Positions 28,690 through 31,345 of a stretch of 64,000 nt of DNA are shown here, in pieces. Source of the stretch: Chrysomallon squamiferum (lineage: Eukaryota > Mollusca > Gastropoda > Neomphalida > Peltospiridae); the NCBI GenBank assembly GCA_012295275.1, contig CM022677.1, positions 14,365,332 through 14,429,331 on the forward strand. Reading direction: 5' to 3'. Each line of letters begins with the position of its first letter. Position 1 is the stretch's first letter. Made by a program: the position numbers and the translations under genes. The notes below the pieces were generated by a model. That model was not told the origin of the DNA, did no database searches, and saw only the letters and a program-made list of their open reading frames with translations.

Positions 28690-28815
28690 ATTTAGTGTGC
28701 ACGTTCAAGTTGGTTTGAGTAGGGAACCAATTCACAGTATTCACGTGATGGAGAACTTCGTGGATGTTGTCGTATCGTGTTTGACCAAACATAAACAGTA
28801 CCCACACAGTAACTA
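28690..28815 (-). other. ErbB-like exon: kinase C-lobe
   Basis: After an acceptor 'tgttgttcag' the frame reads VTVWVLFMFGQTRYDNI, against family 'GVTVWEL.TFG..PYD.I'. The Glu and the Pro before Tyr are changed. It continues EVLHHV and FPTQTNLNVHT, a weak match to the 'LPQP.ICT.DVY' segment, then meets TAA. Confidence 0.75.
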
Positions 28816-29199
28816 CTGAACAACAACAACAACAAAAAAATATATATATTTAAAAAAATTAGTCACACCCATCAGTTTCAAATTTGTTTACATTCTGTAC
28901 CAGTGAAATATTTGTACTATCACAAAGCGAGAAAAGATTCAGTATATCGTTAATGAACCTGTAATATTAATTTTCATGCTTTATTGTTGTTATAAATTAG
29001 TGTTAAAAAATATTAATTTCAAAATGACTCAAAGTAAGAGAAATGTGTTTAGACTGTTTGCTCTTCTAAGTACACTTTATTATATATAATTTTCATTTTA
29101 CAAGCAGGGTGTTAAAATTGATGCATCTTACATATTCAAATGTCATTTCTGCATTAAAATTATAAAAAAAGAGAAAAGATAAAAAGAAGGTTGGACTGT

Positions 29200-29262
29200 T
29201 ATTCCAGACATCAGTTTTGCGTGTGAATATTCTGTCCAGAGCTAGCCACATGACTGGCGTCA
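29200..29262 (-). other. ErbB-like exon remnant: P+1 loop to helix F
   Basis: The frame reads TPVMWLALDRIFTRKTDVW. The family reads '(V/M)PIKW(M/L)ALE..(x)(x)..FT.(K/Q)SDVW'. The invariant Glu of ALE is Asp, and about four residues are deleted before FT. The acceptor AG appears mutated to TG. Confidence 0.8.
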
Positions 29263-29922
29263 GAAACAGTGAAAAAGAATAAAATCTCGTTTCTTATATA
29301 TTTTCAAGTTTATAGCATAACATCTCAAATTTAATCTTTTCGAAATTTCAGCACATCAATGTTCCCAGTTAATAAAAAAAAACTGAATTAAGACTGTTCC
29401 AAGTTTCAGTTTGTAAGTTCCCTATTAATAAGAAAATTGAATTTCAACCATTCAGAATTTCAGTTCTTCAATATTCCCTATTAATAAGGAAACAGAATTT
29501 AAACTTCAATATTTAAAACCTGAATTTGAACCAATTTATCAGTGTTTTTTGATTAGTAAGAAATGTGAATTACTACTGATAAAAAAATAAAATAAATATA
29601 TTATTATTATTATTATTATTATTATTACTACTATTATTACTATTATTATTGTGTGTTATTATTATTGCATAAAATTGTTATAAGTACTATTATTTGAAAA
29701 TGTATTACTTATTTATTTATTTATTGTTTTGTAAAGCCGACTAACGAAGATTCTAATTAACTTTTAAAAGGAAAATAAATATTTGTTTAAATAGAGGAAG
29801 AAAAAAAAACTACTTTCTATTGGATCTAGAAAACTACACCAATTGAAAAAACAAAAACAAAGAAACAAGAAAATGTGAAAACAAAACTTTATTAAAATAA
29901 TTAGCTGACAAAGAATGCTCAC

Positions 29923-29983
29923 CAAGGACATTTTCAGCTAGATCTCTATGGACCATTCCCCTTTCCTCTAAATAAATCATTCC
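29923..29983 (-). other. ErbB-like exon: catalytic loop
   Basis: An acceptor 'gttgttttcag' and a donor GTGAGC bound a 61-base exon reading GMIYLEERGMVHRDLAENVL. The HRD catalytic Asp is present. The following 'AARN' is reduced to 'AEN', so one residue and the catalytic-loop Arg are missing. Confidence 0.85.
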
Positions 29984-30009
29984 CTGAAAACAACACAGTT
30001 TATTTGTGT

Positions 30010-30310
30010 AGTGTATGTGTGTGATTAAGCATGTGTTGGTATGTCTCTCTGTGTTGTGTGCATCTGTGTTGTGTGTGTGTTGTGTAGTGTGTTTGTGTGT
30101 ATGTGTGTGTACTGTATGCATCTATGTGTAGTGTGTGTGTATCTGTGTGTTGTATGTGTGTATCTGAGTGTGTTGTGTATATGTATGTTGTATGTGTGTA
30201 TATGTATATTGTGTGTATATGTGTATATTGTGTTGTGTGTGTTGTGTAGTGTGTGTTGTGTGTATCTGTGTGTTGGGTGTATGGGTGTGTATGGGTGTAT
30301 ATTTGACAAC
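30010..30310. repeat. GT-rich degenerate repeat in ErbB intron
   Basis: Interrupted (TG)n with units like 'tgtgtgttgtgtg' fills the intron between the N-lobe and catalytic-loop exons. All long open frames here are repeat artefacts. Confidence 0.8.
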
Positions 30311-30316
30311 ACTCAC

Positions 30317-30579
30317 ACTGGCTATCTGAGTACATCAGTTGAGGAGGACTTTTGATCCAATGTGATCTTTGTTTTTTCTCACCAGAACACAGCCAAGTGA
30401 CATCAGCTGAGTGATCAACATCATATGTGCACACTGCGAGGATTCTGACACAACAAGGATGCTTCACTGACACCATCACCCATGCCTCCTCCAACAGCTC
30501 CTTGATCTGGTTAGGAGTCCTGTAACTCTTTAATAGCTACTGGAATCTTGACATTTTCTCCTTCTGGTATCCAGTATCC
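30317..30579 (-). other. ErbB-like exon: N-lobe, alpha-C, hinge
   Basis: Acceptor AACCAG; GYWIPEGENVKIPVAIKEL (AIK lysine present). A frame change near 30520 leads to TPNQIKELLEEAWVMVSV (alpha-C Glu region) and RILAVC. A second frame change leads to LITQLMSLGC, NKDHIGSKVLLN, a TGA where Trp is usual, then CTQIA and donor GTGAGT. The 263-base length and the exon border before G(Y/L)WIPEG agree with ErbB genes. Confidence 0.9.
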
Positions 30580-30589
30580 CTGGTTATTA

Positions 30590-30785
30590 ATAATAATAGT
30601 AACAACCACAACAACAACAACAATAATGATAATAATAATAACAATAATGACAGTAATACTAATAACAATAACAATAATAGTAATAGTACTAGTAGCAGTA
30701 GTAGCAACAGTAACGATACCAAAGGTAATAATATAAGTAGTAGTTGTGATAGTAACAGTAGCTGAAGTTGTGGTAGTATTTTTAG
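30590..30785. repeat. AAT/AAC/AGT trinucleotide-rich tract
   Basis: Interrupted trinucleotide repeats lie in the short intron between the glycine-loop and N-lobe exons. The leucine/isoleucine-rich open frames on either strand are repeat artefacts. Confidence 0.8.
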
Positions 30786-30859
30786 TAGGAACATTATAAC
30801 ATTTAACATCCATCAGCTTGTGGTTGGAGGTAGATAAAGATATGTAATTGTATTGTCAC

Positions 30860-30954
30860 CTTATATACCATTCCAAATAATTCGGAGCCAGCAATTCTTC
30901 CTTGTTTCAATTCAGATTCTTGTATCAGTCTAAGCTGGGTTGGGTCAGGTTCAA
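30860..30954 (-). other. ErbB-like exon: glycine loop
   Basis: Acceptor TTTCAG and donor GTGACA bound 95 bases reading PTQLRLIQESELKQGRIAGS then ELFGMVYK. The family reads 'L+I.+.(T/A)E(F/L)+...(V/L)G.GAFG.VYK'. The glycine loop GxGAFG is GSELFG here, so its second and third positions are changed. Confidence 0.85.
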
Positions 30955-31254
30955 CTGAAATAAAAACATTTATTTATAGATGTGCGTGTGTCTTTACCAT
31001 CCTGCGTCATGCATTTGTATCAGATTAAGAACAACTGGATAACAAACGTTTATAATTTTTTCATTAAAAAAACACATCATTTGAAAGTGATATTACTGAA
31101 GGATGTATGTTTAGATAAATGTACAATATAAACATATTACATAGAAAAGGTACTACACACAGAAATGTGACTAAAGTATCTATAATGTATATATATACAA
31201 ATCTGTCTATAAAACAGATAAGTGTGTGCTTAGTATCAGATCAGTCTGATAAAA

Positions 31255-31345
31255 GAAACTCAGTTTCTTCATGACCAGACATCTTAGCTCTGATTGCCTC
31301 AGTCTTCTTCTTCACCTTTGTTCTCTTGTGCCAGTGATATCAAAA
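31255..31345 (-). other. ErbB-like juxtamembrane exon (tentative)
   Basis: The minus-strand frame reads KRTKVKKKTEAIRAKMSGHE then ETEFLL. Insect EGF receptor has a comparable 'K.KKET.....SG.ED.EPL' stretch at the same place before the kinase. Splice borders are unclear. Confidence 0.55.

Follow-up and report, generated by a model that had tools for sequence, protein, structure and literature searches.

A published study reports an expansion of EGF receptors (EGFRs) in molluscs, with two EGFRs each for Lottia gigantea and Crassostrea gigas, and calls the kinase of a Lottia gigantea EGFR potentially inactive or highly divergent (PMC4914847). By this description the Lottia gigantea paralogue resembles the locus analysed here, being a molluscan ErbB with a potentially inactive kinase; it differs in being a listed EGFR sequence, whereas the copy described below cannot encode a full receptor. 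Among the titles listed in literature searches, none dealt specifically with an ErbB pseudogene of a mollusc.

Among individual sequences, the protein P0001 of the limpet Patella vulgata, which NCBI names 'LOW QUALITY PROTEIN: epidermal growth factor receptor-like', shares with the window (the whole stretch of 64,000 nucleotides that was analysed) an identically ordered series of juxtamembrane, glycine-loop, WIPEGENVKIPVAIK, hinge and HRD segments. Where the window shows stops and frameshifts and lacks a DFG segment, P0001 has an open frame with KITDFGLAKLL preserved, although the listed P0001 sequence also breaks off shortly after that motif. Unprocessed (duplicated) pseudogenes generally combine kept introns with scattered stops, frameshifts, small deletions and missing exons, and compared with these the window copy shows nothing unusual.

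Results

Six blocks of an EGF receptor gene lie in order on the minus strand

The ErbB-like blocks noticed at this locus in a sequence-only reading were confirmed. Six blocks, spaced 278-665 bases apart, run on the minus strand from 31369 to about 28700 (Table 1), and the segments named in that reading, i.e. juxtamembrane, glycine loop, AIK lysine, LITQLM hinge, HRD loop, WLAL and VTVW, follow one another in this order. The locus is thus real, but its earlier extent of 28690..31345 was too short, as the juxtamembrane block continues past 31345. The statement that all exons are present in order went too far: HMM searches found neither the DFG segment nor the end of the C-lobe, and partial probes revealed no extracellular exon. 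In the bin of the glycine-loop exon 118 tblastn matches were counted. The HMM match of the VTVW block, the top match of that model in the window, covers the first 18 positions, and homology in this block is clear to about 28760 and doubtful past that.

Table 1. Segments of the EGF receptor remnant and the evidence for each (positions in the window)
Feature	Position	Strand	Evidence
Transmembrane/juxtamembrane remnant (..YHWHKRTKVKKKTEAIRAKMSGHEETE..)	31253..31369	-	tblastn to P0028, 38.5 bits, E 2e-5
Glycine-loop exon (VEPDPTQLRLIQESELKQGRIAGSELFGMVYK)	30860..30957	-	tblastn up to 40.8 bits; HMM 15.3 bits; splice edges; alignment
Beta3/AIK-lysine-to-hinge exon	30319..30581	-	tblastn up to 66.2-66.6 bits
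HRD-loop exon (GMIYLEERGMVHRDLAENVL)	29923..29984	-	tblastn 40.8 bits; top match of HRD-segment HMM, 25.5 bits
WLAL/DVW block (PVMWLALDRIFTRKTDVWN)	29201..29257	-	tblastn 32.7-35.4 bits; HMM 11.7 bits
VTVW block (VTVWVLFMFGQTRYDNIHEV..)	28700..28815	-	tblastn 28.5-31.6 bits; HMM 5.8 bits
Interval expected to hold the DFG/activation-loop exon	29258..29922	-	none detected by HMM

The stitched translation of the blocks matches the tyrosine-kinase family PF07714 at 3.5e-30 (Pfam). Since stitching is steered by the expected answer, the unstitched DNA was tested too. Taking the best of three ErbB queries, eight tblastn blocks scored 66.2, 50.4, 45.4, 40.0, 39.3, 38.5, 32.7 and 28.5 bits. The same three queries were run against 50 dinucleotide-preserving shuffles of the whole window, in which N was read as A, and gave a highest single match of 27.7 bits, the mean of the shuffle maxima being 23.6 bits. 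Every one of the eight blocks scores above that value; the smallest margin, 0.8 bit, belongs to the VTVW block, which on score alone is marginal (28.5 bits, or 31.6 bits with P0096) and which is also supported by its position. Outside the locus, tblastn of 143 proteins yielded no match below E 0.26. A Pfam search of the two open frames that hold kinase parts in unstitched form, 30514-30855 and 30000-30536, returned no kinase match. Six of the eight tblastn blocks share a frame modulo three, but as a hand estimate from the coordinates puts the chance of this at about 1 in 17, we draw no inference from it.

The remnant descends from the ErbB family

Summed over the locus, tblastn gave 266, 303 and 291 bits for the ErbB queries P0001, P0025 and P0028, as compared to 82, 50 and 78 bits for ABL1, INSR and FGFR1, whose probes consisted of the kinase domain only, whereas the ErbB probes include the juxtamembrane part. 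As the ErbB sums exceed those of the other kinases, comparison with other kinase families leaves the ErbB identity proposed earlier in place. In the PDB all 60 sequences listed, out of 833 matched, are named epidermal growth factor receptor. The top of 24 protein matches is the EGFR-like P0001 (66% identical to the stitched query along 73% of its length), and with this as the nearest named relative a molluscan host is likely; among the other 23, P0002 carries the source label 'L1 cell adhesion molecule' and 22 have no label. In a tree of 31 rows, comprising the window and 30 chosen of the 143 proteins, with 12 rows covering under half of the columns, the window forms a separate branch with a length of 0.67 changes per column and is closest by path to P0001 (0.86), a placing without strong support.

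A W-x-PEGE-x-VKIPVAIK stretch is a mark of ErbB receptors, and a stretch of this type, GYWIPEGENVKIPVAIK, is present from 30581 downward. Where an intact glycine loop and HRDLAARN are expected the locus reads GSELFG and HRDLAEN, and no DFG segment was found; these features concern activity and not descent, so that we speak of an ErbB pseudogene rather than of an ErbB kinase.

Introns are retained

The glycine-loop block is flanked by both an AG acceptor and a GT donor; it ends in YK followed by GT, and the next block begins with GYW after an AG. The HRD-loop block is likewise bordered by an AG and by a GT that comes after NVL, and an AG directly precedes both the beta3 block and the VTVW block. 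No GT donor adjoins the 3' edge of the juxtamembrane block, and clean splice signals are absent at both edges of the WLAL block.

We compared these borders with ten relatives, which are predictions and possibly spliced ones. At the GxW border seven of them break: P0004, P0005 and P0024 start there, and P0006, P0007, P0009 and P0012 enter from unrelated residues, while P0001, P0002 and P0003 are continuous across it. After NVL, six of the ten (P0002, P0003, P0004, P0006, P0007 and P0009) switch to unrelated residues. At the border between QIAK and GMIYLEE only P0012 and P0024 break, the other eight being continuous; P0008 and P0019 also diverge there in tblastn alignments. Human EGFR presumably has an exon border at QIAK before GM(I)YLEE as well. 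Of the two exon borders that had been said to fit ErbB genes, the one at G(Y)WIPEG is thus borne out by the majority of relatives and the one at GM(I)YLEE by a minority. With AG/GT edges and with breaks at the same places in some relatives, introns have been retained as proposed, and the copy is therefore not a retrocopy.

The DFG segment and the end of the kinase were not found

An HMM of the DFG/activation-loop segment had no match in 28600-29930, its best score in the whole window being -4.7 bits, and an HMM of the C-lobe end found nothing above -2.1 bits. All four control HMMs, for glycine loop, HRD, WLAL and VTVW (15.3, 25.5, 11.7 and 5.8 bits), had their top matches at the right places, and a joined DFG and WLAL HMM matched in its WLAL part only. 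By tblastn no extracellular exon was seen in the window with probes that hold only the membrane-adjacent part of the ectodomain. When stop-masked minus-strand frames covering 21500-60700 were scanned with Pfam, no receptor domain was found, but as these scans also missed the known kinase blocks in 28700-31370 they provide no evidence on extracellular L and cysteine-rich domains; the only matches were weak ones under the curated cut-offs, namely Atrophin-1 (3.2e-5), DUF3915 and FOG1-like_PR. Neither a tRNA scan nor an Rfam scan of the window gave a match.

Lesions are spread over the remnant

The juxtamembrane block has an in-frame TGA at 31342-31340. The beta3-hinge exon is spread over three reading frames (about 30582-30517, 30536-30429 and 30430-30320) by two frameshifts, has lost two codons in frame at the hinge, and carries a second in-frame TGA at about 30337-30335 in place of the Trp found in the LLNW of relatives. 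In the glycine loop the second glycine is replaced, in the HRD-loop exon one codon of HRDLAARN is lost, and in the WLAL block four codons are lost in frame. All five indels seen shorten the sequence, and three of them preserve the frame. Where a single stop was noted before, there are two TGA codons in addition to the two frameshifts. Together with the in-frame losses of one codon (in the HRD loop), two and four codons and the missing DFG segment, these lesions bear out the earlier view that the copy is dead as a kinase; they rule out a full-length active kinase.

We also counted changes at near-invariant positions, defined by a conservation of 95% or more among 118 relatives. The window is changed at 15 of 75 aligned positions, with the stop counted as one change, although the alignment is poor at the distal end of the VTVW block, so that one or more of these changes (C to N), and possibly a matching position, are misaligned. 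For the 118 relatives the median is 0 changes and the maximum 11; these proteins are the top matches to an intact-type query, a choice that favours low counts. The alignment took 118 of the 143 proteins, namely those numbered P0025 or higher with DFG, and left out one other protein as well as the 24 protein matches, among them P0001; a separate listing gave the best 120 of 4895 matches. In the row of the window another 32 near-invariant positions are gaps, many of them in the segments that were not found.

Four blocks keep 67-85% identity to P0001. This identity, together with the five good AG/GT signals at the edges of the glycine-loop, beta3 and HRD blocks and the good AG before the VTVW block, suggests that decay is recent or partial.

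Surroundings of the remnant

A direct repeat of about 570 bases (31618-32187 and 33681-34258, 95% identical) lies just upstream of the receptor remnant. Two longer same-strand repeat pairs, 5585-7210 with 39847-41477 (75% identical) and 11300-12223 with 42914-43811 (78% identical), occur in the same order, which suggests two old mobile-element copies or a segmental duplication. Clusters of open reading frames at 36937-39348 on the plus strand and 7204-10841 on the minus strand give the impression of transposon-protein remains; seven open reading frames of these clusters had no Pfam match at E 0.01, and a protein search with the open reading frame at 38902-39348 gave no match at E 0.001. The window further holds a tandem array at 60596-61555 (36-base unit, about 27 copies, 93% matches) and simple-repeat tracts at 34700-34745 and 57003-57386, which are typical of a repeat-rich animal genome and the latter of which yields spurious open frames.

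Discussion

The locus is very probably a partial pseudogene that kept its introns, an unprocessed copy of an EGF receptor gene from an invertebrate and probably from a mollusc. The simplest account is that a molluscan ErbB left an ordinary pseudogene of the unprocessed kind. In the proposed course of events a genomic copy of at least the juxtamembrane-to-kinase exons would have escaped selection, would then have accumulated stops, small indels and some loss of splice signals, and would also have lost the DFG exon and the end of the kinase. The ErbB pseudogene of the sequence-only reading is thereby supported; that it arose by duplication at the DNA level, with an intact copy elsewhere, we infer.

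Without that duplication step the same account becomes one of its sub-cases, a unitary pseudogene, in which the only EGFR of the species, or a second ancient one, died in place with no recent duplication. We regard this as possible but rather unlikely. The pairs of EGFRs in Lottia gigantea and in Crassostrea gigas and the potentially inactive limpet kinase (PMC4914847) would fit with it, as would the separate branch of the window, whose closest neighbour by path is P0001. However, loss of a sole EGFR is unexpected for a bilaterian, and the lack of extracellular exons upstream within the window, as judged with partial probes, points rather to a partial copy.

A divergent pseudokinase receptor that is still alive, its exons departing from the expected model, has a precedent in the limpet EGFR that PMC4914847 reports as potentially inactive, and several splice signals at the locus are intact. 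Two frameshifts and a TGA within one exon of high identity, a second TGA in the juxtamembrane block, and a DFG segment and C-lobe end that the HMMs did not find nevertheless make such a receptor very improbable.

We give as little credence to a processed retrocopy or a kinase fragment borne by a virus or transposon. The 95% identical repeats nearby might hint at mobility, but introns are kept where some relatives break, the eight inverted pairs of at least 40 bases listed in 26000-40000 are simple repeats, and a scan of viral contigs with a P0001 pattern gave five stretches, none of them a relative; a plasmid collection had no match to 28600-32000. That an intact gene appears broken through errors of sequencing or assembly is hardly credible either: the assembly is a draft with 200 N in the window, but read errors do not account for the absent DFG segment or for amino-acid changes at 15 of the 75 near-invariant positions.

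Starting again from an unprocessed ErbB pseudogene, it is most unlikely, though conceivable, that the remnant might be transcribed from its surviving splice sites and give rise either to an RNA with a regulatory role or to a short peptide of the juxtamembrane and glycine-loop part, damping the intact EGF receptor. One more dead receptor copy is of little importance in itself. Recognising the remnant would keep annotators from naming it a gene, and it could help to date the gain and loss of EGFRs in molluscs. If the species has lost a whole ErbB paralogue, this would bear on molluscan EGF signalling after duplication.
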